Source of the DNA: a virus
Virus record (IMG/VR): IMGVR_UViG_3300044634_004833
Coordinates: 62,001 to 126,000 of that record
Reading direction: 5' to 3' (one strand)
DNA: 64,000 bases
A program made the position numbers and the translations under genes. The notes beneath the pieces were generated by a model. The model was not told the DNA's origin and did no database searches. It saw nothing but the letters and a program-made list of their open reading frames with translations. Of the stretch, positions 1,209 through 14,987 are shown piece by piece; position 1 is the first letter of the stretch; each line of letters opens with the position of its first letter.

Positions 1209-2519
1209 ATGGATGCCAATATAAAGAATGGAATTAAAAAGAACTTGGTGGCCGACAATCTTTACTCTGTTTCGTTTGAGGATATCAAAAAAGATAGTTT
1301 TGAACTCAAAGAAAAAGGGTTCGATTTTTCTAATCCTAGGATTATTTGCGAAACTTTTAATTCATCGCCAGTAGGCATGAACCAAGATGAAATGGAATAT
1401 CTTAAAGAATCCATTCAAAGAAAGGGTTTGTTGACCCCTCTTATTGCTAGGGCTAATGGCGAACAGATAACTCTTATTAATGGCCATCGTCGATACTTGG
1501 CTATTGAAGAACTGATTAAAGAGAATGCTGAATGTTTTGACATGAATACTGGCAAACTTATTCCTGCTAAAGAACTATACGAAAACGTTCTTGTTCGCAT
1601 TTTCGAAAATGCGACAGATATTGACTCTTATCATTTGGCTTTTGAAGAAGACAAAACCAAAATTAAGTTTGGTCATGGTGTTGAATACAAGTTTGTTGAT
1701 TACTGTATTGAAAAGAAAGTAGAAGATTCTAAAATTTTATTAATGACTGGAAATACTCAAGCATGGCTTGATGGTGTAAAAAGTCTTTTGAAAAAACTCG
1801 ATGGCTCTCATCCAATAGACTACGAGGTTAGAGATTGTGTTTTTAACGAAAAGATGAGCATTGCAGCAGCTAGGGTTTTGTCGGATATAGAAAATGCCGA
1901 AGATAAATCTAAAGCATTTAAAGAAGCACAGCAGGCAGCTCAAGCCGAAGCAAATGCCAAGATTGAAAAATTAGGCAAGCAATTAAAAAACATTCGCAAG
2001 AAACAAGATATAGCCAAAGCACAAAGTCTTATTTGTGCAAAAAATAATGATCAAGATGGACTGAAATCGGCAGAAGATATTCTTGAGGAAGGCCTTCAAG
2101 CTGAAACGGATATATTGACCAAGCAACAAAATATAACACCAGTAATAACAACACATAATATCGCATCTAATAACAATAATATTGGCCCTAGAGCAGGAAA
2201 GGGCAGGCCCAGTAAAAAAACTTCTGAAAAACAAGAAAATGAAGATGTTCCTGTATCTGCTCCGCAGGTAGAAACGGAGAGTAAGTCTGAAGATCCAGAA
2301 TTAGGAGATTTGGTTATTCACAAGAGTATTTTGGTAGATAAATGGTTGAAAACTATTGAAAAAATTAAAGATGATGAATTAGAGGGAATTGTTTTAGATA
2401 CATCAGTTATTAATATTACAAGAGATCTTATTGTATCATTGTTAAATGACCAGTGCTGCGTTGATTTTCTTATTCATTGGTCCAAAGAAATAAGAAGAAG
2501 CACAAGATTTGCCGAATAA
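1209..2519 (+). CDS. ParB-like nuclease-domain protein
   Basis: Residues about 55-105 form a ParB N-terminal-type domain: an asparagine-rich entry, LKESIQRKGLLTPLIARANG, then the signature NGHRRYLAIEEL, which in ParB relatives binds nucleotide or phosphate. A helical middle part follows, then a Lys/Gln/Ala-rich likely coiled coil (about 225-280). A basic AT-hook-like GKGRPSKK lies near residue 325, with an acidic linker and a helical C-terminus. The track-like upstream TTG was rejected in favour of ATG 1209, which has GAGGG seven bases upstream. A strong terminator hairpin follows. Probably DNA-binding in partition, replication or transcription control; a second ParB-like protein is at 49.7 kb. 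Confidence 0.7.
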   Translation: MDANIKNGIKKNLVADNLYSVSFEDIKKDSFELKEKGFDFSNPRIICETFNSSPVGMNQDEMEYLKESIQRKGLLTPLIARANGEQITLINGHRRYLAIEELIKENAECFDMNTGKLIPAKELYENVLVRIFENATDIDSYHLAFEEDKTKIKFGHGVEYKFVDYCIEKKVEDSKILLMTGNTQAWLDGVKSLLKKLDGSHPIDYEVRDCVFNEKMSIAAARVLSDIENAEDKSKAFKEAQQAAQAEANAKIEKLGKQLKNIRKKQDIAKAQSLICAKNNDQDGLKSAEDILEEGLQAETDILTKQQNITPVITTHNIASNNNNIGPRAGKGRPSKKTSEKQENEDVPVSAPQVETESKSEDPELGDLVIHKSILVDKWLKTIEKIKDDELEGIVLDTSVINITRDLIVSLLNDQCCVDFLIHWSKEIRRSTRFAE

Positions 2520-2530
2520 GTATTAAAAAA

Positions 2531-2570
2531 TACGACTGAGAGAAACTTTCTCTCAGTCGTATATATTTTA
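2531..2570 (+). terminator. Rho-independent terminator after the ParB-like gene
   Basis: A 13-base-pair perfect stem, TACGACTGAGAGA (2531-2543) with TCTCTCAGTCGTA (2549-2561), and a five-base loop are followed by an AT-rich tail ending TTTT. It lies 11 bases after the stop codon. Confidence 0.8.
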
Positions 2571-2571
2571 G

Positions 2572-2850
2572 ATGATATGCTTTTGTCCTTATTGTGGCAA
2601 GCCATTGCCAAAGCCTCTAAATAATGGTGTTTCGTTCTGCACCAATTGCACAAGAACTATAGTTTCTACCAAACAAAACGAACTTCTTTCCAGCTATAGG
2701 ATATTAATAAGCAGAGTCTATACCAACGAAGATCAATTAAAGGCTGCTTTAAAAATAAATGCAGAAGATTATGCTTTTATAAAATCGTTTGCAGACGACG
2801 GTCTGAGTGTTGATGAATTTACAAAGCATCTTAAGACTAAAATTGCTTAA
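2572..2850 (+). CDS. Small zinc-ribbon protein
   Basis: The first 30 residues hold two CxxC knuckles, CPYCGKPLP and CTNCTR, spaced as a C4 zinc ribbon. The remaining 60 residues look helical (SSYRILISRVYTNEDQLKAALKI and KSFADDGLSVDEFTKHL). The ribbon suggests a nucleic-acid or protein contact; nothing more specific can be said. The start sits just behind a terminator and lacks an obvious ribosome site, so initiation is uncertain. Its tail overlaps the convergent csrA gene by 14 bases. Confidence 0.6.
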   Translation: MICFCPYCGKPLPKPLNNGVSFCTNCTRTIVSTKQNELLSSYRILISRVYTNEDQLKAALKINAEDYAFIKSFADDGLSVDEFTKHLKTKIA

Positions 2851-3040
2851 AAAATTCTTTTACATCTTTGTTAGATCTTTGAATTAATTCAGTTCTAGTA
2901 ATTTTATATTCGTTTTCTGCTTCGATTCCAACTCGAACTTTATAGTTGTCATCAATTCGACATACAGTTATTTTTATTAATTTGCCATCTGGGCAACTAA
3001 TTGTAATGCTTTCATCTTGTTTTCTGGTTAAAACTAACAT
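2837..3040 (-). CDS. csrA: CsrA/RsmA-family translational regulator
   Basis: A 67-residue protein beginning MLVLTRKQDESITI, the classic CsrA first strand, and continuing to RVGIEAENEYKITRTEL, which matches the RNA-binding edge with the conserved arginine (R in ITRTEL). CsrA dimers bind GGA motifs in mRNA leaders and block or stabilise translation. In a phage it could reprogramme host or phage mRNAs. Length is normal for the family. A ribosome site AAGGAG precedes the ATG. It converges with the zinc-ribbon gene and is divergent from the AT-hook gene. Family identity is clear; the target mRNAs are unknown. Confidence 0.9.
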   Translation of the reverse strand: MLVLTRKQDESITISCPDGKLIKITVCRIDDNYKVRVGIEAENEYKITRTELIQRSNKDVKEFFKQF

Positions 3041-3107
3041 GCAAACTCCTTTTTTAATTTTCCCTATTAAAATTGTAGACTATTAAAATTTCAAAATCAA
3101 ATTTTTT

Positions 3108-3137
3108 GGTTGTTTTCAAAATAAAATCCCCTAATAT
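3108..3137 (+). promoter_or_regulatory. Sigma-70-like promoter before the AT-hook gene
   Basis: GGTTGTTTT at 3108 and CCCC-TAATAT with the -10 box at 3132-3137 have the standard 24-base phasing of this promoter family. It rules out the far-upstream start of the following frame and supports ATG 3169. Confidence 0.6.
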
Positions 3138-3168
3138 TTCAAAAGACAAATTCATTCATGAGGGTGCC

Positions 3169-3576
3169 ATGAGCCAGAATCAACCTGTTGGTCAAGATGA
3201 CAAAAAAACACTTGTAACATTAATGGAGGAAAGAAAACTCCTGATGCAACAAATTAAAGAAATAGAAACCCAAATACAGAAAATAGGCGGCTCAATTTCA
3301 GGGGCAAGAGCTTACATCGGAGAATCTAAAATAGGCAGGCCAAAAGGCAGCACAAATAAAAAGTCTCTTGATTCTATTATTCTAGAAACCGTTTACAACT
3401 CTTCTGTTGAAGTTGGTGTAAACGATATAATTGAAAAAGTTATTTTCGAAGGCTATGTTTCTTCTTCTGGTGCAAAAGATTTTTTGAATATTGTGCGTTC
3501 TAGACTTAGTGTTCTAAAGAAACAAAAGAAAATTATTAGAAACGACGATACAGCAAAATTTTCTAAGGCCACTTGA
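3169..3576 (+). CDS. AT-hook DNA-binding protein with coiled coil
   Basis: 135 residues. The N-terminal part is a coiled coil (LVTLMEERKLLMQQIKEIE). It is followed by an AT-hook-like minor-groove motif, GRPKGSTNKK, and a C-terminal domain that reads as a winged helix (VNDIIEKVIFEGYVSSSGAK, then LSVLKKQKKIIRND). An oligomerising coil plus a basic hook plus a small DNA-binding domain resembles nucleoid-type or silencing regulators in layout, but homology is not claimed. Start ATG 3169 has GAGGG upstream and lies about 25 bases after a predicted transcription start. Likely a transcription or chromatin-like regulator of phage or host DNA. Confidence 0.65.
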   Translation: MSQNQPVGQDDKKTLVTLMEERKLLMQQIKEIETQIQKIGGSISGARAYIGESKIGRPKGSTNKKSLDSIILETVYNSSVEVGVNDIIEKVIFEGYVSSSGAKDFLNIVRSRLSVLKKQKKIIRNDDTAKFSKAT

Positions 3577-3600
3577 TTCAGATATGTTTTTTATTACAAT
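3571..3600 (+). promoter_or_regulatory. Possible promoter giving a leaderless clpX mRNA
   Basis: ACTTGATT at 3571 and TACAAT at 3595-3600 keep the family's 24-base phasing. The expected transcription start, seven bases after the -10 box, falls exactly on ATG 3607. No ribosome binding site is visible, consistent with leaderless translation. The -35 match is weaker than in other copies. Confidence 0.35.
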
Positions 3601-3606
3601 CATGTG

Positions 3607-4830
3607 ATGAAAAACAAAAATAACTCAAAAGATATTTTCCTTTGCAACTTCTGCGGAAAACCTTCCGCAGAAGTTGGTCATTTAATAGAGAGTAATATCT
3701 CTAAAGACAAAGTTCGCATATGTTTTGTATGTCATAATACTTGTTCACACATTTTTTCTCATCATAGCAAACAATATAGTGCTAAAAGTTTTTCTAAAAA
3801 AAAGAAATCTAAAAACTTCGATCCTAGAAGTTTAAAAGAATATTTGGATCAATATGTTATTGGTCAAGATTTTGCAAAAAAAGCACTAAGCATTGCTGTT
3901 GCAAACCATTATAAAAGAATTAATGAAATAGTAGAATGTAATAGCAAAGATGAAGTTATTTTAGAAAAGACAAATGTTTTATTAGTTGGGCCAACTGGTT
4001 GTGGAAAAACCATGTTGATCAAAAGGTTGGCAAAATTTCTTAATGTGCCTTTAGCAATAGGCGATGCTACATCCTTGACAGAAGCTGGATATGTTGGCGA
4101 TGATGTGGAAAGTTTGATTTCTACGTTATTGCGTAATTGTGACTTTGATATAGAGGCCGCACAAAGCGGAATTATTTATATTGATGAAATTGATAAGCTT
4201 TCCATAAGCAGAAATAATGTTAGTATTTCCAAAGATGTCGGAGGAGAAGGTGTACAACAATCCTTGTTGAAAATCATAGAAGGCACCACATGTAATGTAA
4301 GTCCGCAAGGTGGTAGAAAGCACCCTGAGCAAAAAATGTTGCATATAGACACAACAAATATTTTGTTTATTGTTGGCGGAACATTTGCAGGAATTGAAGA
4401 TATTTTAGCAAAAAGAAATGGCAGAAAGATGGGTTTTCATCATTCCGCTGAAACAGCACACGAACAAGATGAATCAGTATTGCCAGAAGACCTTATTAAA
4501 TTCGGTATGATACCAGAATTTATTGGAAGGTTCCCCCTCATACAAAAATTGGAAAAACTAAGTGTTGAAGACCTTGTCACGGTTTTGGAAAAACCAAAAA
4601 ACAGTTTGGTAAAACAGTACAAAAAGCAATTTCAATTCGATAATGTACAGTTAACTTTTGAAAAAGATGCTCTTTATTACATAGCAGAAAGAGCCTTTGT
4701 TTTAAGTACAGGGGCAAGAGGATTGAAGCAAATTATAGAAAGAATATTATTTGACTATAATTTTAATGTTGTAGATTATAAAAATAAAAAAATTGTAATT
4801 ACAAAAAAATACGTTGAGGAAAAACTTTGA
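3607..4830 (+). CDS. clpX: ClpX-like AAA+ protein unfoldase
   Basis: ATP-driven unfoldase subunit of the ClpXP protease. It has an N-terminal C4 zinc-binding domain (CNFC about 14-17, CFVC about 40-43), Walker A GPTGCGKT near residue 129, pore loop GYVGDDVE, Walker B IIYIDEIDK and the sensor/arginine-finger region PEFIGRFPL. The ClpP-docking IGF loop appears as MGF in RKMGFHHS, so docking to a ClpP looks possible. Length of 407 residues is close to bacterial ClpX. No clpP is in the window, so it presumably uses host ClpP. ATG 3607 is preferred over GTG 3604. The following gene overlaps its stop codon. Confidence 0.92.
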   Translation: MKNKNNSKDIFLCNFCGKPSAEVGHLIESNISKDKVRICFVCHNTCSHIFSHHSKQYSAKSFSKKKKSKNFDPRSLKEYLDQYVIGQDFAKKALSIAVANHYKRINEIVECNSKDEVILEKTNVLLVGPTGCGKTMLIKRLAKFLNVPLAIGDATSLTEAGYVGDDVESLISTLLRNCDFDIEAAQSGIIYIDEIDKLSISRNNVSISKDVGGEGVQQSLLKIIEGTTCNVSPQGGRKHPEQKMLHIDTTNILFIVGGTFAGIEDILAKRNGRKMGFHHSAETAHEQDESVLPEDLIKFGMIPEFIGRFPLIQKLEKLSVEDLVTVLEKPKNSLVKQYKKQFQFDNVQLTFEKDALYYIAERAFVLSTGARGLKQIIERILFDYNFNVVDYKNKKIVITKKYVEEKL

Positions 4831-5225
4831 TACCAATTTTTGTTTATGGAACTTTAAAAAAAGGCGGTCGAGGGCACCATCTTTTAAAAAATTGTAAATT
4901 CCTTTCTGAAGTTACAACTAAAAAAAATTATAAATTATATAGTAAAATTTCTTATCCGTGTATGGTTTTGGATTTAGAAGATCCAAAATCAGTTCCTGGC
5001 GAATTATATTTAGCTGATTTGTATACCATCAAAGTTTTAAATGAATACGAAGGAGTAGACGTTGGTTTGTATTCTTTGTCTGTAATTGAATTAGATGAAA
5101 ATACTTTTAAAAATAAAGAAATTGTTGTTGCACATGGGTATTGTATGTCTTATATTTACTTAGGCGATGTTTCATATTTAAAAGTTATCGATCAATGGCA
5201 GGAGCAATTAATTCATGAATATTGA
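4827..5225 (+). CDS. Gamma-glutamylcyclotransferase-like (AIG2/GGCT fold) protein
   Basis: The N-terminus MIPIFVYGTLKKGGRGHHLL carries the FVYGTLxxG signature of the GGCT/AIG2 fold. PGELYLADLYTIKVLNEYEG supplies the usual (V)xGELY and the acidic E of the active pocket in E-Y-E-G. Family members cleave gamma-glutamyl amine bonds to release 5-oxoproline; the actual substrate here is unknown. It starts with TTG inside the clpX stop region (TTGA overlap) with GAGGA upstream, so translation is probably coupled to clpX. Its end overlaps the sigma-factor gene by 11 bases. Confidence 0.75.
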   Translation: MIPIFVYGTLKKGGRGHHLLKNCKFLSEVTTKKNYKLYSKISYPCMVLDLEDPKSVPGELYLADLYTIKVLNEYEGVDVGLYSLSVIELDENTFKNKEIVVAHGYCMSYIYLGDVSYLKVIDQWQEQLIHEY

Positions 5226-6123
5226 TAAAGTTGATTTTGAGATCAACGAAAACAATTTTAAATATTGGATTACTGGAGACTTCAACGAAACTTCTTATGG
5301 CGAAGAAATAGAATCAGAAATACCAGACGCAGAAGAATTTGCAAAGAAAAAAGTTTTAATTCAAAAAGATATAAACAAGGTCGCTCCTGAAATACGGCAG
5401 TTTTATACTGAGCCACTTCTTACGAAAAAACAAGAGTTTCATATTTTTAGAAAAATGAATTTCTATAAATATAAAATGAAACTTAATTTTGATACTTACA
5501 AGCAAACTGGAATAAACAATTTTGAAAAAATATGTATTGATTATTTTTGTAAATATCAAGAAACTAGAAACTTTATTGCTACTTGCAATACTCGTTTAAC
5601 TGCTCAAGTTATTAAAAAAAGAAAAGATTATTATGGAGAAAATATAAACGATTTAATAAGCGATTGTTTATTTAATATTATGAAAGCAATAGATGGATTT
5701 GATTACACAAGAGGTTTTAAATTTTCAACTTATTGTACATGGGTTTTAATGAACAATTCTTTGAGAGACCATTCTCATGACAAAAAGTTTTATGATAAAA
5801 TTGCAACGAATATTGACAATTCTACTTTTTCAAACAAATTAGATGAAAAACAATATGAAAATGTATCTCAAGTTGAAAAAGATGAAAGCATAAATTATGA
5901 TGTTTTAAAAGTTTTAAATCTTATTAAACAAAGAGATTGCAGAGAACACTTTGTTATTATCCATTGTTTTGGTCTGCTTGGCAAAAGTAAAAAAACACTA
6001 AAGGAAATATCAGCGGAACTTAACTTAACAAAAGAAAGAGTTCGGCAGATTCGTGAAAATGGAGTTAAGTTTATCAAGGATCAAATAAAAGACGGTAAAC
6101 TTAATTTAATTTCTTTAAGCTAG
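5215..6123 (+). CDS. RNA polymerase sigma-70 family factor
   Basis: 302 residues. Region 2 is seen in DLISDCLFNIMKAIDGFD followed by GFKFSTYCTWVLMNNSLRDH, the core-binding and -10-melting segment. Region 4 is at the C-terminus: TLKEISAELNLTKERVRQIR, a clear helix-turn-helix with the VRQIR recognition end typical of primary-like sigma factors. Region 3 is short or absent and the N-terminus is acidic. It would direct RNA polymerase to a phage promoter class. It overlaps the GGCT-like gene by 11 bases, making clpX, GGCT-like and sigma one transcription unit. Two other sigma-like proteins are at 8.0 and 15.8 kb. Confidence 0.85.
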   Translation: MNIDKVDFEINENNFKYWITGDFNETSYGEEIESEIPDAEEFAKKKVLIQKDINKVAPEIRQFYTEPLLTKKQEFHIFRKMNFYKYKMKLNFDTYKQTGINNFEKICIDYFCKYQETRNFIATCNTRLTAQVIKKRKDYYGENINDLISDCLFNIMKAIDGFDYTRGFKFSTYCTWVLMNNSLRDHSHDKKFYDKIATNIDNSTFSNKLDEKQYENVSQVEKDESINYDVLKVLNLIKQRDCREHFVIIHCFGLLGKSKKTLKEISAELNLTKERVRQIRENGVKFIKDQIKDGKLNLISLS

Positions 6124-6152
6124 CCCACAACTGCGGGCTGGAATCAAGACAT

Positions 6153-6263
6153 TCAACCGCCATGTTTTTTATGGTGGGAGAGCTTCTTTTTTTTCATTTC
6201 TTTTGAATCTCTTATTTTTATCCACTCTACAAATTTAATTGGTTTGTTTGGTTTTTGTTCCAT
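6153..6263 (-). CDS. 36-residue basic peptide with capsid-targeting-like motif
   Basis: Short frame, too small for usual ORF lists. It has a strong GGAG six bases before its ATG, and its start lies one base after the stop of the upstream gene on the same strand. The peptide contains PIKFVEWIKIRDS near residues 8-20, the same F-x-E-W-I pattern found at the start of many proteins in this window, followed by a Lys/His-rich tail (KKKKLSHHKKHGG). A possible small internal head peptide or DNA-condensing peptide. A hairpin near 6157-6179 (CCGCCAT/ATGGTGGG) lies within its 3' end. Confidence 0.55.
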   Translation of the reverse strand: MEQKPNKPIKFVEWIKIRDSKEMKKKKLSHHKKHGG

Positions 6264-6264
6264 T

Positions 6265-6510
6265 TTAATCTCCAGTATCTATATCTAAAAATTGCAATCT
6301 GTCTTCTTGATTAAACTTTATAATTTTATTTATTACCCAATCTTGTAAATCGTTTAGATCTATCCTTGCCATTATCAAAGAATAATTTTTTTTATTTTTT
6401 AAATTATTTATGGCATCTAAAAGGAGAGGGTTTTCTTCTATTTTTTCTTTTAGCCAAGGTCTTTTAAAATAAACTTCTTCTATGGTTTCCGCTAATTTAT
6501 CATCAAACAT
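6265..6510 (-). CDS. Small acidic hypothetical protein (81 aa)
   Basis: Unrecognised. Mostly helical by composition: FDDKLAETIEEVYFKRPWLK, then ENPLLLDAINNLKNKKN and a C-terminal acidic end DIDTGD. No cysteines, signal or membrane segment. It sits in a minus-strand operon between the DUF3008-like gene (stop one base before its ATG) and the 36-residue peptide gene (ATG one base after its stop), so the three are probably co-translated. Confidence 0.65.
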   Translation of the reverse strand: MFDDKLAETIEEVYFKRPWLKEKIEENPLLLDAINNLKNKKNYSLIMARIDLNDLQDWVINKIIKFNQEDRLQFLDIDTGD

Positions 6511-6511
6511 A

Positions 6512-6787
6512 TTAACTCTTGCAATTACAATTTTTACATTTACAATTCTTGCAATTATTATTCTTACATTCTTTGCATGGACACTTGCATTTGTTTTCTA
6601 TGTTTCTTTTTTTCACATATTCTTTAAAAGACATAATTCTATGTTCTAGATGGGTGAATTTTTCCACATCCGCAGAACTCATTGAGTCAGCAACATTCTT
6701 TATTTTTTTACTTGGGCACTTGCCATTTTCTTGGCAGTTTTTCACGGCATAAAAAAAATTCTTTTGTTTTTGGCTTCTGGCTGGCAT
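6512..6787 (-). CDS. DUF3008-like protein with metallothionein-like Cys-rich tail
   Basis: Residues 1-50 read MPARSQKQKNFFYAV...KKIKNVADSMSSADVEKF, resembling the small DUF3008 family (MPAKSxxQ...F...KVKKVAKSM). An internal IMSFKEYVKKRNIE follows, similar to the capsid-targeting-like motif. The last 25 residues contain eleven cysteines as CxC and CxxC repeats (CKCPCKECKNNNC...CNCKS), like a metallothionein or other metal-binding tail. ATG 6787 is chosen because the family starts at MPA; the longer frame would use GTG 6835. Function unknown; metal binding is inferred from the cysteines only. Confidence 0.7.
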   Translation of the reverse strand: MPARSQKQKNFFYAVKNCQENGKCPSKKIKNVADSMSSADVEKFTHLEHRIMSFKEYVKKRNIENKCKCPCKECKNNNCKNCKCKNCNCKS

Positions 6788-6844
6788 ACTGTATTTAGTT
6801 GTTGTATTATGATTTTCATCAACCTGCTGCACCACGAGATTAAA

Positions 6845-7159
6845 ATGTCTAGCAAAACTTCAAAAAAATCTCCTGAAAATAAAGTCCCTCTGGTTTTTAT
6901 GACAATAAAAGAAGTAGTTGAATATATTAATAATGAATCTGAATGTCCTTATTTAATTAGTTTTGAGCATAGTATGGCTGGAATGGGAGAAAATGTTATT
7001 AAGATAACTTCTAAAAATACATATAATGTTGTTTGTTATATTAACAACGAAAATAATAAAATTTTTTTCCCAAGGCCTGTTTCGTCTGCTGTTATAAATG
7101 AAATTTTAGATTTGACGAACAAAAAAGATAAACTTTTTTCAAACAACTTCATAAGTTGA
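6845..7159 (+). CDS. Hypothetical protein (104 aa)
   Basis: Unrecognised. The basic start MSSKTSKKSPENK is followed by alternating strand and helix (FMTIKEVVEYINNESECPYL, then NVVCYINNENNKIFF). I start it at ATG 6845 because the upstream part of the open frame lies antisense to the DUF3008-like gene and reads like noise. Only a weak GAG precedes the ATG. It converges with, and overlaps by 21 bases, the hydrolase gene on the other strand. Confidence 0.55.
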   Translation: MSSKTSKKSPENKVPLVFMTIKEVVEYINNESECPYLISFEHSMAGMGENVIKITSKNTYNVVCYINNENNKIFFPRPVSSAVINEILDLTNKKDKLFSNNFIS

Positions 7160-7843
7160 ATTTTTTGCTGGCATATTATTTTCATAATCTTCTATTTTTT
7201 CCAAAGCATCAAATAGGTAGTGAGATGTCAAAGTAGACATTACTTTATCGCCTCTTAGGTCTTTTACTATCTCTAGTTGGCAAGATTCAACTCTATCATT
7301 GTAATTATGTGTTGTGAAATACTTATTCATATTGTTATATGAAGCGCCGTTATATTTATCTCCAGGAAAGCTACTGTAACATTTTACACCACAATTAATT
7401 AAATTACATATTACAAATCTTTTAAGATTCAAATTGCAACTTCTATCAGGAAAAGATTTGCTTTCACCATCTCCAAAAATCATTTCTAAATCTTTTTTGT
7501 TATATTTTGATCTAATATTATTGCTTGCGCCATGTATCCAAATTATAAAACATTTTTGATAAAATTTTAATATCGTGTTAACGCTTTGTATTATTGGATT
7601 GAGAAATTCTTTTTTTACATCATCTATTATATGAGAATAGTTATTGCAATCCGCTTGCTCAGATTTTATATCTAATGTTTTAGACTTTTTCCAACCATGA
7701 TTTATGACATAATTGCATCCTAGTAATTTGGCAGTTCTTTCTGTTATCAAATCTGTATTGTAATCATCTGATTTATTGCCGTGTGGGGCAACCAACAATA
7801 AAGGTTTTGCCCCATGTCCGATTGTTACTCTGGCGTTTCTCAT
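7139..7843 (-). CDS. N-formylglutamate amidohydrolase-like hydrolase
   Basis: 234 residues. LLLVAPHGNKSDDYNTDLIT near residue 15 resembles the metal-binding HG motif and threonine turn of N-formylglutamate amidohydrolases and related phage hydrolases. FIIWIHGASNN and a late SCQLEIVKDLR match the usual second histidine region and the QLE...R segment. Such enzymes are zinc-dependent amidases; here a peptide, formyl-amino-acid or poly-glutamate substrate would be possible. No signal peptide. It overlaps the convergent small gene by 21 bases. The assignment rests on motif spacing alone and is tentative. Confidence 0.5.
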   Translation of the reverse strand: MRNARVTIGHGAKPLLLVAPHGNKSDDYNTDLITERTAKLLGCNYVINHGWKKSKTLDIKSEQADCNNYSHIIDDVKKEFLNPIIQSVNTILKFYQKCFIIWIHGASNNIRSKYNKKDLEMIFGDGESKSFPDRSCNLNLKRFVICNLINCGVKCYSSFPGDKYNGASYNNMNKYFTTHNYNDRVESCQLEIVKDLRGDKVMSTLTSHYLFDALEKIEDYENNMPAKNSTYEVV

Positions 7844-7892
7844 ACTATATTTTATCCTTCGATTTAAATTTTTTTTAAAAGATCCAAAAATT

Positions 7893-7922
7893 GGTTGTTT
7901 TTTTTCTTGGATACCGTATCAT
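7893..7922 (+). promoter_or_regulatory. Sigma-70-like promoter before sigma-like gene 2
   Basis: GGTTGTTTT at 7893 and TATCAT at 7917-7922 are phased exactly as in the other copies, with ACCG before the -10 box. The transcript would start about 7929 and carry the shared leader element at 7945-7987. Confidence 0.6.
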
Positions 7923-7944
7923 TTAGGGATAAAAATCAAAGAAA

Positions 7945-7987
7945 GGGGGCTGCGATAAAAATTTTCTAATTGCTAGTGGCCATCGCA
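7945..7987 (+). ncRNA. Shared structured 5' leader element, copy A
   Basis: The leader contains CTGCGATAA (7950-7958) and TAGTGGCC (7974-7981), also found in the leaders at 36.1 and 48.6 kb. TGCGAT (7951-7956) can pair with ATCGCA (7982-7987), closing a hairpin around the variable middle. It lies between promoter and start codon, 59 bases before ATG 8040. I do not recognise it as a known riboswitch; a cis-acting RNA or protein-binding site is inferred. Confidence 0.5.
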
Positions 7988-8039
7988 AGGATTTGCGTGT
8001 TAACCATAATTCCGCCAGATTTAATAAGGAGGTGTCAAT

Positions 8040-8864
8040 ATGTACAAGACTTTTACCCTAGAAGAGCGTCAAGAAATAGCCCAAGCCAATATTCTTGCAA
8101 AGAGTTACTTTGATCAGATTGCTCAAAACTTTAAAAACTATTCTGAATTTGTTGCCCTTCTAAAAAAGGATTATTCTAAAATTTACGATATGTTGCCAAG
8201 TAATCTTAAAAGTAAGTTTTTTGATGATGTTATGATTTTAAAATTGCCTTTGAAGTATGAAGACAAAATGCAAGATGTTTGCAAAGGTATTATTTTGACT
8301 GCTGTTAAGCAAAGAAGCTTTAATGGCATGGATTACGACGAAGCTTATATTGAAGGAATGATTGGGGCAGACAAGGCCCTTTGGATGTACAGGGATAGCG
8401 CAATTAAGTTGCAAACATACGCCATGACTTGTGCTAGGAGTAGGTTGGCTGATTACAGAGAAAAGCAGTTTAATAGTAAGAAGAAAGCAAAGGAATATGG
8501 TTTCGAAGACTTTGACAAGGCTCCTATAACCAAAGAAGAAAAATATCTTGGAAGGGCTTTCCGCAAGAACACAACTGTAGTGGATGCGGTGTTAGACAAT
8601 GAAGAAGCAAAGATTAAGTTTGATGATTTGATAAACATGGCGTGTTCTGATGAGCTGGATTTAGAAATCGTCAAGAACTATTTGGAAAACAATAGGAAAG
8701 GTTCCGAATCAGTTTGGGTTGTAGATGTAATTCAATTCTTTGAGGGAAAGACAGGAAAGCCAATTAGCGCCAACGCTGTGCGTAAAAGGCTTGCGAAAAT
8801 TCAACAAAGGGCAAAAGACATTGCTGACAAAAAAGGCTTTAAAAAAGAAAATATTGTTCTTTAA
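8040..8864 (+). CDS. Sigma-factor-like protein 2
   Basis: 274 residues. YDEAYIEGMIGADKALWMY followed by KLQTYAMTCARSRLADYREK matches sigma region 2 (core binding and the F/L-x-S/T-Y-A segment). GKPISANAVRKRLAKIQQRA near the C-terminus could be a divergent region 4 helix-turn-helix. The N-terminal 90 residues are helical and unassigned. AAGGAGG seven bases upstream makes ATG 8040 secure. It has its own sigma-70-like promoter, a shared leader element and a strong terminator, so it is a single-gene unit. Possibly a late or middle promoter-specific factor; a T4 gp55-type role is a guess. Confidence 0.65.
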   Translation: MYKTFTLEERQEIAQANILAKSYFDQIAQNFKNYSEFVALLKKDYSKIYDMLPSNLKSKFFDDVMILKLPLKYEDKMQDVCKGIILTAVKQRSFNGMDYDEAYIEGMIGADKALWMYRDSAIKLQTYAMTCARSRLADYREKQFNSKKKAKEYGFEDFDKAPITKEEKYLGRAFRKNTTVVDAVLDNEEAKIKFDDLINMACSDELDLEIVKNYLENNRKGSESVWVVDVIQFFEGKTGKPISANAVRKRLAKIQQRAKDIADKKGFKKENIVL

Positions 8865-8894
8865 TTTGGCTTGGCCTTCTGATATTATTTGGTC

Positions 8895-8954
8895 ATTGGC
8901 ACCGGATGCAATAGGCAGGATCGCATAGTGCGATGCATCCGGTGCCAATTTTTT
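8895..8954 (+). terminator. Strong branched terminator after sigma-like gene 2
   Basis: ATTGGCACCGGATGC (8895-8909) pairs perfectly with GCATCCGGTGCCAAT (8935-8949) and is followed by TTTTTT. The loop holds a smaller hairpin, ATCGCA-TAG-TGCGAT. This is one of the most stable-looking structures in the window. Confidence 0.85.
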
Positions 8955-8964
8955 GGATAATAAA

Positions 8965-9153
8965 ATGACAGATGTTTCTTACGAATGGATGATGAGAATA
9001 ATGGAACTTAGGAAGTTCCCCGAGTTGGCTACTAAAGAAGATGTTCAAAAGCTAACCGATGACATCATTCTTTTGATATATGGTTTTAAAGAGAAGGCAA
9101 GCTATGTAGATATAGTATCACATATACAGGAAAGCCATGCACAACAGCCATGA
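8965..9153 (+). CDS. Small hypothetical protein (62 aa)
   Basis: Unrecognised helical protein (VSYEWMMRIMELRKFPELAT, then KLTDDIILLIYGFKEKASYV). ATG 8965 follows the terminator, with only a weak GGA upstream. The extended TTG start at 8953 lies inside the terminator T-run and was rejected. Its end overlaps the next gene by 17 bases, suggesting co-translation. Confidence 0.55.
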   Translation: MTDVSYEWMMRIMELRKFPELATKEDVQKLTDDIILLIYGFKEKASYVDIVSHIQESHAQQP

Positions 9154-9703
9154 GTTCTTAGATAAGATATGCAAAATTCTTCAAAGGCAAAAGCAAACTA
9201 AAATAAGTGGCAAATTAGAAAAGTTAACTGTTTTTAGAGTTTTGACAAATAAAAACAATTTCCCATATGAAATAGAATTAGATGATATAAAAATAGAGTC
9301 AGTTAATGAAACAAATGAAGATTTTGTCACTCTTGTAAAAAAAATAAACCCATTTTTTAATTTTAATGTAAGCAAAGAAAAGTTAAAGTATTATAAAAAA
9401 TATTATTTTATTACAAATAAAATTTATGAATCGGTTAAAAATTTATTTAACGAAAGACAATTGGTTTCATACTTTTCAATTTATGACATTACAAATCAAA
9501 CTGATATACTTTTGGATGAACATAGACAAAATGGCGCTAGTGATCAATCTTTGTTTAAAACTTTTGAAGAAGCAAAAAATTCGCTTTATGACTATTGCCA
9601 ACTGTATAATAATTTTGGGCTAGAAATGAAAGTTGCAATTCGCAAACATAATTTCATAGGCGATATTCTAGAAGAAACAACTATAGATGTCAGCGAACTG
9701 TGA
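9137..9703 (+). CDS. Hypothetical protein (188 aa)
   Basis: Unrecognised. Lys/Asn/Phe-rich, with an N-terminal helix (SHEFLDKICKILQRQK), a charged middle and a C-terminal part with FEEAKNSLYDYCQLYN and a strand-like GDILEETTIDVSEL. No signal peptide, membrane segment or known motif. AGGAAAG upstream of ATG 9137 is a reasonable ribosome site. It lies between the 62-residue gene and the GMP-reductase-like gene with short overlaps on either side. Confidence 0.65.
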   Translation: MHNSHEFLDKICKILQRQKQTKISGKLEKLTVFRVLTNKNNFPYEIELDDIKIESVNETNEDFVTLVKKINPFFNFNVSKEKLKYYKKYYFITNKIYESVKNLFNERQLVSYFSIYDITNQTDILLDEHRQNGASDQSLFKTFEEAKNSLYDYCQLYNNFGLEMKVAIRKHNFIGDILEETTIDVSEL

Positions 9704-9710
9704 GGCACAA

Positions 9711-10712
9711 ATGCAAATTGAAAAAGAAGTCAAACTAGATTTCAATGATGTTTTAATCAAACCAAGGCCCAGCGAATTAAAAAGTAGAGCAGAAGTAAAC
9801 CTAGAAGTTTCTTATTTGTGCAAGCATGCCAATAGAATAATAGCCGGGTTTCCTTTAATTGTAGCAAACATGAGTTGTGTTGGCACAATTCCTATGGCAA
9901 AAGCATTGCATAATTATGGATTTTTTGTTGCACTACATAAATTTATAGAAGAAAAAAGATTGGTAGAGTTTTATAACTCCATAGAAAGTCAAAATTCTTT
10001 TTATACTCTTGGTTTGAACGATGATTTGGAAAAATTGGACAGAGTAATAGATTCTTCTAAATATTTAAATAAAATAAACCTTGATGTTGCAAATGGATAC
10101 ATGTATAGTTTTTTAGATTATATAAAGAAAATAAGACAAAGATATCCTAATTTTATTATAATGGCTGGCAATGTAGCAACACCAGAAGGTGTAGAAAACA
10201 TTGTAAAAGCTGGAGCTGATATAGCTAAGTGCGGAATTGCAAATGGTGGCCATTGCGAAACAAAAAACAAAGCTGGAATTGGTTATAAACAATTTTCTGT
10301 ATCAGTTGAATGTGGTCAAGCAGCTAATGAATTGAATGCCCTTTGTTGTTCCGATGGGGGTTCTAAATCTCCTGCAGACATATGCAAGGCTTTGGGAGGC
10401 GGTAGCCATTTCGTTATGGCCGGGGGGCTTTTTGCAGCCACAGATGAATGTGAATCAGAATGGAAAGAAGAGAATGGCATTAAGAAAATGCTTATGTATG
10501 GCATGTCTAGCAAGGTGGCTAATGACAAATACTGTGGCGGATTAAAATCTTACAGAGCATCAGAAGGAAGAGAATCATGGATTGATTACAAAGGACCAGT
10601 TTCTCATATAGCTGTTGATATTAGAGGTGGCGTAGCAAGTTGTTGCACCTATACAAATACAAAAAATTTAGAGAATCTTAGAAAAAACTGCATATTTACG
10701 ATTGGAAAGTGA
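9711..10712 (+). CDS. guaC: GMP reductase / IMP dehydrogenase family enzyme
   Basis: TIM-barrel oxidoreductase of purine salvage. DFNDVLIKPRPSELKSR at the start is the family N-terminal signature. IIMAGNVATPEGVENIVKAG is the phosphate-binding strand-loop, and KCGIANGGHCETK contains the catalytic cysteine loop. CCSDGGSKSPADICKALGGG is the second phosphate-binding region. The 333-residue length and absent CBS domains favour GMP reductase (GMP + NADPH to IMP + ammonia) over IMP dehydrogenase. ATG 9711 has GAGG five bases upstream; ATG 9687 lies inside the previous gene. In a phage it would adjust purine pools for DNA synthesis. Confidence 0.85.
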   Translation: MQIEKEVKLDFNDVLIKPRPSELKSRAEVNLEVSYLCKHANRIIAGFPLIVANMSCVGTIPMAKALHNYGFFVALHKFIEEKRLVEFYNSIESQNSFYTLGLNDDLEKLDRVIDSSKYLNKINLDVANGYMYSFLDYIKKIRQRYPNFIIMAGNVATPEGVENIVKAGADIAKCGIANGGHCETKNKAGIGYKQFSVSVECGQAANELNALCCSDGGSKSPADICKALGGGSHFVMAGGLFAATDECESEWKEENGIKKMLMYGMSSKVANDKYCGGLKSYRASEGRESWIDYKGPVSHIAVDIRGGVASCCTYTNTKNLENLRKNCIFTIGK

Positions 10713-10716
10713 AATA

Positions 10717-10845
10717 ATGAATGAGCAAGATCAAAGTCATCTCGAATACTTGACAGCAATTATATTTTTTATTATTCCTGTTGGTCTTTTAATGAACTCA
10801 ATAGTTCTTAAATTTTGTTTGTGGATTCTAAATTTGCATTCGTAA
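10717..10845 (+). CDS. 42-residue single-pass membrane peptide
   Basis: A short frame just behind guaC begins MNEQDQSHLEYL and runs into one hydrophobic segment (TAIIFFIIPVGLLMNSIVL), ending LNLHS. It is a likely inner-membrane peptide with the N-terminus outside or inside undetermined. The ribosome site is weak (GGAAAG ten bases upstream, in the guaC end). Small phage membrane peptides often act in lysis control or superinfection exclusion, but nothing specific supports either here. Confidence 0.5.
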   Translation: MNEQDQSHLEYLTAIIFFIIPVGLLMNSIVLKFCLWILNLHS

Positions 10846-10864
10846 ATACATCAAGGTGATAAAA

Positions 10865-11254
10865 ATGATTAGTTTAAATGAATACAAAGAAGTGGGAAGT
10901 TTTTCAGGTCTTGTTTCTAAGTTTTTTGAAGCGAGAGATTTCGCTCATAGAGTTCATTTGTTGGCGAAAAATAAATCATACGCTGAACATAAAGCATTAG
11001 GATCTTTTTACGAAGATTTAATTGGTTTGGTAGACAACCTATATGAGACTCATGCAGGACAGTATGGCCCAGCCAAATTTGATTTTAATAAGATTCCCGA
11101 TGGAGATGCCACAGAATATCTTGAGTCTTTGGGAAAAATATGTGTAGCTGGCCATTCTTCTATTGATAAAAAAGATACCCATCTACACAATATTTTAGAT
11201 GAAATTACAGCTTTGGTTTATCACACATTGTATAAGTTAAAAAATTTGAAATAA
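10865..11254 (+). CDS. Dps/ferritin-like small helical protein
   Basis: 129 residues. FAHRVHLLAKNKSYAEHKAL continuing to GSFYEDLIGLVDNLYET has the H...H..L..FY....VD...E pattern of Dps-type four-helix proteins and of phage families thought to share that fold. Dps proteins bind iron and can protect DNA. Metal binding here is an inference from the spaced His, Asp and Glu. The start MISLNEYKEV is weakly similar to the capsid-targeting-like motif. ATG 10865 has AAGGTG upstream; GTG 10856 was rejected. Confidence 0.6.
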   Translation: MISLNEYKEVGSFSGLVSKFFEARDFAHRVHLLAKNKSYAEHKALGSFYEDLIGLVDNLYETHAGQYGPAKFDFNKIPDGDATEYLESLGKICVAGHSSIDKKDTHLHNILDEITALVYHTLYKLKNLK

Positions 11255-11255
11255 T

Positions 11256-11519
11256 TCACAACTTTGCTTTTTTTAACTTTTTATAGTAGTTAGAATCTTC
11301 TTTAAGATGTGCTAATGCAATCTTCAATATTCTTTCCTCATGTCCTTCGATAACATCAAGCTTTTTAATAGACATATGTTCTTTTTCAGTGTTAACGCCA
11401 GAAACTAATTCCTCTTTACTAAAATTAGAAATATTTAGCTTTGCTTTTTTAGCTATATTTTCAATGTCTTTATAATCAAATTTTTTAGATTCTATTAAAA
11501 TCCACTCTTTGAATTTCAT
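11256..11519 (-). CDS. DUF5661-like small protein with capsid-targeting-like start
   Basis: 87 residues. It begins MKFKEWILIES, one of the clearest F-x-E-W-I-x-x-E examples. The body has EELVSGVNTEKEHMSIKKLD and ALAHLKEDSNYYKKL, matching from memory the phage family DUF5661 (G-x-x-x-E-x-E-H, then HL-x-E-x-x-x-YY-x-x-L). It lies downstream of the 88-residue gene and probably shares its TATAAATA promoter. Function unknown; packaging into the head is inferred from the N-terminus. Confidence 0.75.
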   Translation of the reverse strand: MKFKEWILIESKKFDYKDIENIAKKAKLNISNFSKEELVSGVNTEKEHMSIKKLDVIEGHEERILKIALAHLKEDSNYYKKLKKAKL

Positions 11520-11527
11520 TTTTTTCC

Positions 11528-11794
11528 TTAACGCATTTCTGCTGTCAACCAGTTGTAAACTTCTTCAACATCATCTTTTGATGTCGCAATATGATCATTT
11601 GCCCAATCATGGCCATTTTGAAGCATTTTATCTACTTTTTCAGGATCAAGTGATAACATGTGGTCAACTCTGTCTTTAATAGTTTTTAAATTGTTGAAAA
11701 ACATGTAGTGTTGAACATCATGATCTTTTTCATAATCATGACTTTCTTTGAGTAGTCCTGCCAATATTAGTAGTTCTTTATTTTCTTTTTGCAT
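11528..11794 (-). CDS. Small hypothetical phage protein (88 aa)
   Basis: Helical acidic protein with LLILAGLLKESHDYEKDH at the start and GHDWANDHIATSKDDVEEVY near the end. The second motif looks familiar from small proteins of T4-like phages, but I cannot name a family with certainty. An exact TATAAATA box lies 16 bases upstream and GGGGGA precedes the ATG. It is the first gene of a two-gene late-type unit with the DUF5661-like gene. Confidence 0.7.
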   Translation of the reverse strand: MQKENKELLILAGLLKESHDYEKDHDVQHYMFFNNLKTIKDRVDHMLSLDPEKVDKMLQNGHDWANDHIATSKDDVEEVYNWLTAEMR

Positions 11795-11809
11795 AAATCC
11801 CCCTGAAAA

Positions 11810-11817
11810 TATTTATA
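11810..11817 (-). promoter_or_regulatory. T4-late-type promoter TATAAATA (minus)
   Basis: Exact TATAAATA read on the minus strand, 16 bases before ATG 11794. T4 late promoters consist of this box alone. It lies 8 bases from the start of the divergent sigma-70-like promoter at 11825. Confidence 0.6.
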
Positions 11818-11824
11818 ATCTGGC

Positions 11825-11854
11825 GGTTGTTTTTGAAATAGTAGCCCCTATAAT
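11825..11854 (+). promoter_or_regulatory. Sigma-70-like promoter before the GC-rich secreted gene
   Basis: GGTTGTTTTT at 11825, CCCC, then TATAAT at 11849-11854: one of the best copies of the family. It drives the gene starting at 11932. Confidence 0.7.
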
Positions 11855-11931
11855 ATAATCTGTGGCAAGCATACTGTATGTTTGCAAATTAAAATTTGAT
11901 TTTTATATAGAGAAGAAAGGTGGGTAACCAC

Positions 11932-12342
11932 ATGCGTAATTTTATTTTTGCTTTGACTGTTTCTGTTGTTTCTTTGGCTGGCGTTCAGGCTGGCGATGCT
12001 CCCAAGGCCCAAGCTGCTCCTGCTGCCAAGGCTGCTGTCGCTTCCTGTGATTGCCAACCAGCAACTGCTGCTCGTCGTCCTCTTCTGGGTCGCCGTAACG
12101 CTTGCGCTGAGACCGTTCTAGTCGAAGGCACCAAGAAGGTCACCGTCCTTGAGCCTAAGAAGGTTCTGGTCGAAAAGACCGTTATGGTTCCTGTCCAGAA
12201 GGAAGTCAAGACCGTGACTCCAGTTAAGGTTGTTGCTGCTCCTGTTTGTTGCAGCACGGCTGCTGTAGCACCAGCTCGTCGTCTTGGCCTCCGCACCCGT
12301 GGCGTTGTGGCTGGCGTTTCTGACTGCGCTAACTGCAAGTAA
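11932..12342 (+). CDS. GC-rich secreted Ala/Val/Cys-rich protein
   Basis: 136 residues. MRNFIFALTVSVVSLAGVQA is a clear signal peptide with an A-x-A-type cleavage site. The mature part is Ala-rich with C-D-C and CC cysteines, RRPLLGRRN, and a repetitive Lys/Val stretch (KKVTVLEPKKVLVEKT, then VPVQKEVKTVTPVKVV) that should form a beta or fibrous segment. Its codons are strikingly rich in G and C (GCC, GTC, AAG, CGT) compared with every neighbour. This suggests recent capture, probably from the host. AAGGTGGG precedes ATG 11932. It has its own promoter and terminator. Surface function unknown. Confidence 0.8.
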   Translation: MRNFIFALTVSVVSLAGVQAGDAPKAQAAPAAKAAVASCDCQPATAARRPLLGRRNACAETVLVEGTKKVTVLEPKKVLVEKTVMVPVQKEVKTVTPVKVVAAPVCCSTAAVAPARRLGLRTRGVVAGVSDCANCK

Positions 12343-12370
12343 ATCTTGCGTTGTTATTGCTCTTGAATTA

Positions 12371-12412
12371 AAGGTGTAGAGCTTTACAATAAAGCTCTAC
12401 ACCTTTTCTTTT
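12371..12412 (+). terminator. Rho-independent terminator after the secreted gene
   Basis: AAGGTGTAGAGCTTT (12371-12385) pairs with AAAGCTCTACACCTT (12391-12405) around a five-base loop, followed by TTCTTTT. Confidence 0.85.
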
Positions 12413-12424
12413 AGGAGCGTTATT

Positions 12425-12871
12425 ATGTTGGTAGCCATTCTTCTAATTTTAGGCCAGCAGCCACTACCTGCTATGGTAGTATCCATGCCTTTTATAAAGG
12501 CAGATACAATCTGTAAAAATAATCAAAATGAAACAGATAAGACTTTGTTTAGTGACAAGTGTTTAGACAATATGGCTAAAAACTACAAGCCTGTGAAAAT
12601 TTATTATGCTATGTATGGGGTTGATGGCAAAGAAGATATAATTCCTCTAGGAACTGTTTCGTGTATCTATATAACAAAAAACACCATTTATGCAAGGTGC
12701 GAGTTTGATGTTGCTCCTCCAAAAAATATAAAAGATTATATTTGCAACGCCAAACCATATGCTGGAAAAGGTGATTTTGATTTTTCAGACAATTGTATCT
12801 ATACAATCAATAAGGCCGAAATTAAATATTTTGTATTAAGGCCTAAAAATAAAGCTATTATTTTCGAATGA
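12425..12871 (+). CDS. Secreted or membrane-anchored hypothetical protein
   Basis: 148 residues. The N-terminus MLVAILLILGQQPLPAMVVS looks like a signal or anchor sequence. The mature part has six cysteines (TICKNN, DKCLDN, VSCIYI, ARCEFD, YICNAK, DNCIYT), which may form disulfides in the periplasm or outside the cell. No family is recognised. AGGAG lies seven bases before the ATG. It follows the GC-rich secreted gene after a terminator, but its own base composition is ordinary for the window. Confidence 0.65.
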   Translation: MLVAILLILGQQPLPAMVVSMPFIKADTICKNNQNETDKTLFSDKCLDNMAKNYKPVKIYYAMYGVDGKEDIIPLGTVSCIYITKNTIYARCEFDVAPPKNIKDYICNAKPYAGKGDFDFSDNCIYTINKAEIKYFVLRPKNKAIIFE

Positions 12872-13552
12872 TCAACTGGTATGAAACCAAATTGAGAAGG
12901 TCACATGTTCTTTAGCAAGATATGTGACCTTTAATAATTTGTATAGTTCGTCAGCCAAAAGCACTCCTGCTTTATAATCGGAAGGATAGTGTAGTCCAGC
13001 AAGAATTCTATTCTTTCCCATGCTCTTGCCAAGTTCACTCAATTCGGGTTTTTTCTCTGGAAACATATGGCCCAAAACTTTGGCTGCTAATGCGCCAAAT
13101 GTAGCATGACCGCTTGGGTAAGATGCTGTACTAGCTGTTTTTGATGGGAATATTTTAAATTGCTCCCCCATTTTAGATGCCAAAAAGGCTGGTCTGGGTC
13201 TGTCATATTTCTTTTTGTAGTGCTTTACCGCAATTTCTGTATCCATTTCTAGCAGATAGATGAACTTTTCTAAAGTGGGATCGTCAATTTTTAAGGCATC
13301 ATAAAAAATCGTATTTAGTCTAGGCCAGTATCCATCTTGTTCTTTTATTTCTTTTTTCTGTTTGGTTGTTAATGATTTGAAAGACTTCTCAATCAGCTTT
13401 AGTTCTTCAAAAGTTTCTTTTGAATCGTTAGCAGGAGGATCTGGCAATTTAATTTTATCCCAAGAATCTTCAAATATTTGAATTTTCTTTTTTGGAACAT
13501 CGTAATAATCACGATGTTTCATATCTGAATCTTTTAGATTTTTAATATCCAT
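12872..13552 (-). CDS. PAP2-family acid phosphatase
   Basis: 226 residues with all three PAP2 signature motifs: KKKYDRPRP near residue 112, SYPSGHATFG near 145 and NRILAGLHYPSD near 180. These form the vanadate-binding phosphatase site with the catalytic histidine. Spacing resembles class A nonspecific acid phosphatases. Unlike those, no signal peptide is seen, so it would act in the cytoplasm or be carried in the virion. It is the last gene of a minus-strand operon that starts near 16.8 kb. Substrate unknown; phosphate esters, polyprenyl phosphates or nucleotides are possible. Confidence 0.85.
   Translation of the reverse strand: MDIKNLKDSDMKHRDYYDVPKKKIQIFEDSWDKIKLPDPPANDSKETFEELKLIEKSFKSLTTKQKKEIKEQDGYWPRLNTIFYDALKIDDPTLEKFIYLLEMDTEIAVKHYKKKYDRPRPAFLASKMGEQFKIFPSKTASTASYPSGHATFGALAAKVLGHMFPEKKPELSELGKSMGKNRILAGLHYPSDYKAGVLLADELYKLLKVTYLAKEHVTFSIWFHTS
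12897..12932 (+). terminator. Hairpin able to end plus-strand transcription
   Basis: AAGGTCACAT (12897-12906) pairs with ATGTGACCTT (12922-12931), 26 bases after the stop at 12871. The loop is long (about 15 bases) and the T-run is short. It overlaps the C-terminal coding part of the PAP2 gene on the other strand. Confidence 0.4.
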
Positions 13553-13555
13553 GCA

Positions 13556-14569
13556 TTATTTATTAGTGTGATTAATAATTGCATCAACATCTTCTATTTT
13601 TGATTCAATAATGTGTGCATGTGATAGATTTAAATTTTTGTAAAAGTCACGATACCTCATCAAGTCATACTTGGCTTCAAGGGCCAATTTGATTACGGTG
13701 GGACTTGGTTTTCTTGGCCGTTTGCTAAGTACAAGTTTTATTAATTTGGGGGTGTAATTATCATGATTGCTGATATTACCCAAATAAGTCCTTATTACAT
13801 AGGCAAGCCCTGAATATCCTTTGTCTATGATGTATTCCAAGCAAAATACAGAATAATTACGGGTAAACACCTCGGCCATTGTTTGAAGGTTATGTGGATT
13901 GATTTTATTGAAAATCATAGTCTGCAAGAAGTCAATGACTTTTTGCTGGCAAATATTTGAGCCAAAAATTGTAGTATTAAATACTATTGGATCAATCTTT
14001 TTATCTGTATAAAGGAAATATTTTAATGCCTTAAGCTTTTCTTCATCAGTATAAGCAGAATTGTGGACAATCAAATGTAAAACACTAATATCAATTGGCA
14101 AGTGTGGTCTATTCTGAGGCCAGCAATAAAATGATAGAAGTATGTCTATTACATACATAGTATCATTTTTTTCTATTTTGCCTTCATCTAGAAAGCTCAT
14201 GAAGTGGTAAATTATTTCTGTGTCCAATTTATTAAGATTTTTATATTTAATTGCATAGTATGCACCATCTTCGGTATCGAGTAATTCGTTAAATCTTTCT
14301 GTGCTTTCCTTGCAAGTTTCTAGTAGCAATTTTATAGCTTGTTCCAAGTAATCATCAGGATAAGATTCATCATGCAAATCTTGATAATTGCAAAATTTAA
14401 TAAAGTCTTTTCTGCTTTTTATGTCAAAATATTTGAAAGAAGAATCGTTAAGCATAAGATGCAAGGCATTTACTACTTTTCCTTCATTTACATTTTCTGT
14501 AAAAGATAGATACATAAAAGATTTAGTAGCGTATATTTCTGGACTGATTGTAGTATTTGCTGGGCACAT
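13556..14569 (-). CDS. Large helical hypothetical protein (337 aa)
   Basis: Unrecognised. Predicted almost entirely helical with repeat-like spacing of Leu and Tyr (VIDFLQTMIFNKINPHNLQT, SVFCLEYIIDKGYSG, TPKLIKLVLSKRPRKPSPTV), reminiscent of ankyrin- or HEAT-type solenoids, though no canonical repeat is clear. No catalytic motif, signal or membrane segment. It lies four bases before the PAP2 gene and ten after the 135-residue gene in the same minus-strand operon. Confidence 0.7.
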   Translation of the reverse strand: MCPANTTISPEIYATKSFMYLSFTENVNEGKVVNALHLMLNDSSFKYFDIKSRKDFIKFCNYQDLHDESYPDDYLEQAIKLLLETCKESTERFNELLDTEDGAYYAIKYKNLNKLDTEIIYHFMSFLDEGKIEKNDTMYVIDILLSFYCWPQNRPHLPIDISVLHLIVHNSAYTDEEKLKALKYFLYTDKKIDPIVFNTTIFGSNICQQKVIDFLQTMIFNKINPHNLQTMAEVFTRNYSVFCLEYIIDKGYSGLAYVIRTYLGNISNHDNYTPKLIKLVLSKRPRKPSPTVIKLALEAKYDLMRYRDFYKNLNLSHAHIIESKIEDVDAIINHTNK

Positions 14570-14579
14570 ATAATATTTC

Positions 14580-14987
14580 TCACAATGTGGGTGAAATCAA
14601 CTTCAGTATATCTGCCGAAATTTTTGGTATAGTTGCAGATCTGTTTTTGTTGTGTTTTAACATTTTTTGATGAGGCACGGCTTGTATTCCTTGCCTAATA
14701 TCTCCAACATGCCATACGACATCTCCCAAGCAAATCTTTTCTTCAGAAACATAAATTTTTTGAGTTTCAAATATATTTTTTTTATTTCTTTCTACGATTG
14801 CTTTTTTTAGGTCATCAGAATAGTAATGCAATATTTTTATAGTTTCTTTTATGCCGATGGAGGATATTGCTCCGAATGGCTGATAAATGTTTAAAATTTC
14901 AAATGCTTTTTTTAACTTTTCAAGAAGGATTGGGTTACGAGTAAGGGGAATGTCCCCTTCGACTTTAAATGGCCTATGTTTAAGCAT
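14580..14987 (-). CDS. Hypothetical protein (135 aa)
   Basis: Unrecognised basic protein. LLEKLKKAFEILNIYQPFGA and KILHYYSDDLKKAIVERNKK are likely helices, followed by EKICLGDVVWHVGDIRQG, which looks like a short beta element. GGAAAA upstream is a modest ribosome site. It sits in the middle of the 16.8-12.9 kb minus-strand operon. Confidence 0.6.
   Translation of the reverse strand: MLKHRPFKVEGDIPLTRNPILLEKLKKAFEILNIYQPFGAISSIGIKETIKILHYYSDDLKKAIVERNKKNIFETQKIYVSEEKICLGDVVWHVGDIRQGIQAVPHQKMLKHNKNRSATIPKISADILKLISPTL

Follow-up and report, generated by a model that had tools for sequence, protein, structure and literature searches.

Organization of the P0001 locus

The window analysed here is a stretch of 64,000 nucleotides that spans bases 62001-126000 of a 154,941-base IMG/VR virus record. 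The ORF list and the translation place a gene, P0001, at 11932..12342 on the plus strand, encoding a cysteine-containing, Lys/Val-rich protein of 136 aa that is predicted to be secreted. The product begins with MRNFIFALTVSVVSLAGVQA and continues with GDAP after the predicted cleavage point. The putative signal peptide (residues 1-20; 11932..11991, plus strand), with a VQA/G cleavage site, was assigned by an A-x-A-type rule from the sequence pattern alone. The seven cysteines are located at residues 39/41, 58, 106/107 and 132/135, the Lys/Val-rich segment covers residues 61-100 (12112..12231, plus strand), and the mature protein has a net charge of +11. The signal peptide (by rule), the paired cysteines and the Lys/Val-rich segment of the original prediction can all be read in the translation. 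The predicted structure is uninformative (pLDDT 40). The idea that the two Cys/Arg parts arose by duplication within the gene was rejected, since 2279 of 5000 shuffles were equally good and the likeness is not significant.

A promoter-like site, TTGTTT-N16-TATAAT with CCCC before the TATAAT, lies upstream at 11827..11854 on the plus strand and was assigned to the phage class CCCCTATAAT on the basis of its sequence and the enrichment of the class. A second TATAAT at 11854-11859 overlaps this site. The CCCCTATAAT class is phage-wide, and seven of its seven sites are intergenic. The motif CCCTATAA occurs at seven sites in the whole record, all of them intergenic and upstream of same-strand genes at a genic fraction of 0.87; one copy is found at 11846, ahead of P0001, and several have TTGTNT 16 nt ahead of TATAAT. 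The ribosome-binding site read in the sequence, AAAGGTGG (11916..11923, plus strand), is positioned 8 nt before the ATG. Downstream, folding showed an intrinsic terminator (12370..12406, plus strand) with a 17-bp stem, a 3-nt loop and a following TCTTTT, whose hairpin has an energy of -27.9 kcal/mol (z -7.9). Similar long hairpins are also present elsewhere in the phage. Both the phage-type promoter and the separate terminator that had been proposed for the gene are borne out by these comparisons. The resemblance of the promoter to a sigma-70 site suggests that P0001 is transcribed by the host polymerase, early or in the middle of infection.

A second promoter-like class, CTGCGATAA, has 14 of 17 sites in intergenic DNA of the record. 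Sites of the second class, CTGCGATAAAAAAT, are located at window positions 7950, 36111 and 48626 and in the record segments L250 and L251, and cluster towards the right end of the record.

Composition and codon use

The GC content of P0001 is 54.9%, compared with a mean of 32.9% (s.d. 5.1) for the 76 ORFs of the window, and is the highest in the window and across the 154,941-base record. GC3 is 43.4% vs. 25.4% for the window ORFs. The step in GC along the sequence tracks the boundaries of the ORF. The codon-adaptation score against the rest of the window is 0.484, the lowest among the ORFs (0.704 for the others, z -3.3). Thus, the per-gene computations agree with the earlier description of a GC-rich gene in an AT-rich genome with codon use unlike the rest of the window. 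Recoding with phage codons still gave an expected GC content of 45.4%, indicating that the amino-acid composition accounts for about half of the GC excess and the codon choice for the remainder. Lysine is encoded by AAG in 11 of 11 cases, CGT is used in 7 of 9 and GCT in 21 of 25, and neither AAA nor AGA occurs. Other ORFs by the right end of the record (L250 and L251, ~44% GC) have an equally odd GC3 and also have unusual codons.

Comparisons with codon tables showed a mean log-likelihood per codon for P0001 of -1.06 with pooled planctomycete YTV wall-protein genes and -0.99 with the best single YTV locus. The corresponding values were -1.14 with E. coli ribosomal-protein genes, -1.27 with a uniform table, -1.32 with other planctomycete ORFs and -1.34 with the phage genes. 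The preference for the YTV table over the phage table is +0.30 nats per codon, followed by +0.05 for the next ORF (mean -0.55, s.d. 0.20, 178 phage ORFs), so that P0001 is the sole ORF of the 178 that clearly prefers the Pirellulaceae YTV-gene table. Such codon use is characteristic of a bacterial gene with high expression; it is compatible with planctomycetes but not specific to them.

The right end of the record, segment L251 (146001-154941), is GC-richer (~44%) and carries a MoxR-like ATPase adjoining a protein that matches phage cobalamin-biosynthesis-type families. Very large RCC1-repeat proteins are encoded at 57306-61562 of the window, with poly-Thr linkers, and at 2340-14946 of segment L248; their relatives are found in the Synechococcus phages BUCT-ZZ01 and S-SRM01.

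Flanking genes and related phages

P0001 is flanked by a gene for GMP reductase (IMPDH family, found by family search) at 9687..10712 on the plus strand and by a PAP2-superfamily phosphatase gene (family match 1.3e-12) at 12872..13552 on the minus strand. Directly after the terminator, an ORF at 12425..12871 on the plus strand encodes an apparently secreted, Cys-containing protein of 148 aa with ordinary phage composition, for which no family was found; a link in function with P0001 is possible.

A search of viral contigs gave 467 relatives of the GMP reductase. Eighty of them were retained, and the 67 whose contigs continue for 6 kb or more downstream of the gene were examined. The GMP reductase/PAP2 pairing is conserved in 23 of these 67 contigs, where PAP2 follows GMP reductase on its own strand, at a distance of 1.7-3.2 kb in 15 of the 23. 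In this phage the PAP2 gene is 2.2 kb away and on the opposite strand. P0001 is encoded in none of the related loci, including the 23 with PAP2 as a neighbour, and a search of these loci with a YTV-block HMM (described below) gave nothing convincing. The compared relatives are distant (GMP reductase ~40-45% identical), and two contigs whose GMP reductase is 77% identical are fragmentary and lack P0001.

The absence of P0001 between otherwise adjoining genes, as seen in distant relatives and with the PAP2 strand differing here, the promoter and terminator of its own (by consensus and enrichment) and a composition unlike that of its neighbours together support the view that P0001 is a moron-like unit, as originally predicted from sequence. 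Two other GMP-reductase phages (L369 and L407) have small secreted ORFs with GC contents 10-11 points above the locus, Cys-rich in L407, which are perhaps analogous host-like genes.

A YTV-like block in P0001

No relatives of P0001 were found in IMG/VR, GTDB contigs, INPHARED, PLSDB, Pfam, PHROGs, NCBIfam or the PDB, and no full-length relative in phage, viral, plasmid or ~650 mostly planctomycete genomes. Whole-genome searches of 49 and 392 genomes (mostly Planctomycetota) and of 241 genomes of the YTV-rich family gave no full-length relative and only chance-like matches, many of which are interrupted by stops. When ~0.78 Mb of planctomycete DNA was screened for analogues that are small, secreted and rich in Cys, two matches came up, neither similar.

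The segment LVEKTVMVPVQKEVKTVT of P0001 resembles the repeat block that comes first in YTV (PF07639) proteins. The YTV-like block, VLVEKTVMVPVQKEVKTVTP (residues 78-97; 12163..12222, plus strand), is supported by an HMM of first YTV blocks and by hhalign. It contains VEKTVMVP, a stretch also carried by planctomycete wall proteins. Among 294 Planctomycetota genomes, the coding pattern for EKTVMVP matched once; the 549-aa frame at this site encodes a secreted, Cys-rich protein that belongs to PF07639 (2.7e-33). In the taxonomic family of the genome with this match, where Rubripirellula and Pirellulaceae are among the genome titles, the KTVMVP pattern occurred 62 times, spread over 30 of 149 genomes, compared with 8 occurrences of the reversed pattern. 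Thirty loci were read, and 19 of them were judged by eye to encode long repeat proteins with a YTV-type architecture. Their first block, VTYVEKTVMVPxQVxETRTVT, aligns to residues 79-96 of P0001. An HMM of 11 first blocks scored P0001 at 16.5 bits, above the maximum of 14.7 bits in 40,000 shuffles; the training proteins had been selected with a P0001 motif, so that part of the score is built in and the match is suggestive rather than conclusive. An hhalign comparison with the YTV alignment covered 12 columns with 75% identity (probability 41%).

P0001 had no match to any Pfam model up to E 10, the YTV model with its cut-off of 21 bits included, whereas a planctomycete YTV protein in the same run scored 114 bits. 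A full YTV profile search did not retrieve P0001. P0001 has the signal peptide (by rule) and the Cys-containing N-terminal region of YTV proteins, with one KTVMVP block instead of repeats and no YTV tripeptide. Given the failure of the Pfam model, P0001 is described as YTV-like and not classed as a YTV protein. Among viral contigs, the EKTVMVP coding pattern had 18 matches in apparently unrelated proteins, and no match to the YTV profile was confirmed.

Two other candidate marks of planctomycetes were rejected. The motif KTVxVPVxK was not enriched (1 of 199 Planctomycetota genomes vs. 1 of 195 genomes of the phylum of an Opitutia genome). Another protein of this phage, encoded at 10007-10729 of L246 and a candidate for planctomycete likeness, had no match in either phylum searched at E 1e-5 and provides no independent evidence for the host.

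Origin of P0001

P0001 is probably a captured host gene product that acts on the host envelope. A moron-like capture from a planctomycete (Pirellulaceae-like) host, of a highly expressed gene for a secreted, wall-acting envelope protein, is our tentative reading, to which we give not quite an even chance. The claim of a captured bacterial gene gains from the codon fit and the YTV-like block, and a full-length bacterial parent was not found. The suggestion that the gene may identify the host lineage yields a planctomycete (Pirellulaceae-like) lead that is suggestive and not proof. Relatives confined to phages of like composition, the outcome named as contrary to the original prediction, were not obtained, as no phage relatives were found.

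The gene may instead have been captured from a bacterium of another phylum, with VEKTVMVP arising by convergence in a Lys/Val-rich segment, a serious possibility that we nevertheless lean against. Just ~12-18 residues match the YTV block, the genomes searched hold no full-length planctomycete relative, E. coli ribosomal-protein codons fit nearly as well, and the EKTVMVP coding pattern recurs in the 18 viral contigs with unrelated-looking proteins. However, none of the 40,000 shuffles reached the block score, the motif occurs in proteins of a like kind, secreted and Cys-containing with K/T/V repeats, and the best codon fit is to Pirellulaceae YTV genes. If the block is convergent, P0001 is an ordinary captured gene.

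It is improbable that P0001 was born in the phage, for example as an abundant secreted or virion-associated protein with codons shaped by selection for high expression and not by a donor. The codon choice does look like translational optimisation, both the class of promoter and the type of terminator belong to the phage, and no cellular relative emerged from the searches; yet its codon pattern occurs in no other gene of the phage, and phage relatives are equally missing. A chimeric assembly joining host to phage DNA would explain the sharp GC rise over a single ORF but is very improbable, because the gene has a phage-class promoter ahead of it, a phage-type terminator behind it and AT-rich sequence on either side, and the rise follows the ORF rather than a larger host block.

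Proposed role

YTV proteins are cysteine-rich wall components found in wall preparations and reported to be confined to Planctomycetales (PMC8567305; PMC5287468). In the reading preferred here, capture from a planctomycete host, P0001 would derive from a bacterial, probably Pirellulaceae-like, gene for a secreted envelope protein that has come under a phage-class promoter and is ended by its own terminator. The product would be exported via Sec during infection, its paired cysteines would oxidise outside the cytoplasm, and the VEKTVMVP repeat-like segment may associate it with the cysteine-rich proteinaceous wall of the host. The promoter type and the predicted export suggest modification of the envelope during infection, with superinfection exclusion as the first choice: P0001 at the wall would most likely change the surface so that later phages cannot attach or inject. 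Alternatively, it may loosen the cross-linking of the wall.

A more specific and rather unlikely proposal is that P0001 is a miniature mimic of planctomycete YTV wall proteins, exported during infection to insert into the proteinaceous wall or to cap it. We know of no earlier virus-encoded element of the YTV wall system, and of no account of how phages pass the unusual, protein-rich wall of planctomycetes or block others there. If the mimic proposal is true, P0001 would be a molecular marker of planctomycete-infecting phages. A secreted, wall-protein-like phage product would offer a way to test ideas about the planctomycete wall and about the range of phages that infect these bacteria.

Comparison with known systems

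P0001 and the YTV wall proteins have in common a Sec signal (predicted in P0001), a Cys-containing N-terminal part, the block VEKTVMVPxQxxExxTVT and similar codon preferences. In contrast, P0001 is much smaller (136 aa vs. ~330-700 aa), has approximately one block, lacks the YTV tripeptide and a Pfam match, and has Arg-rich flanks. Morons, which are autonomous transcription units derived from hosts, were defined in temperate lambdoid phages. P0001 shares with phage morons a promoter and terminator of its own, an odd composition and absence from relatives that keep the flanking genes; unlike for classic morons, this phage shows no evidence of lysogeny and the donor was not found. T5 Llp and T4 Sp are envelope proteins of superinfection exclusion. 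With no sequence relation claimed, P0001 resembles them as a small, exported, phage-expressed protein that is probably located at the envelope.
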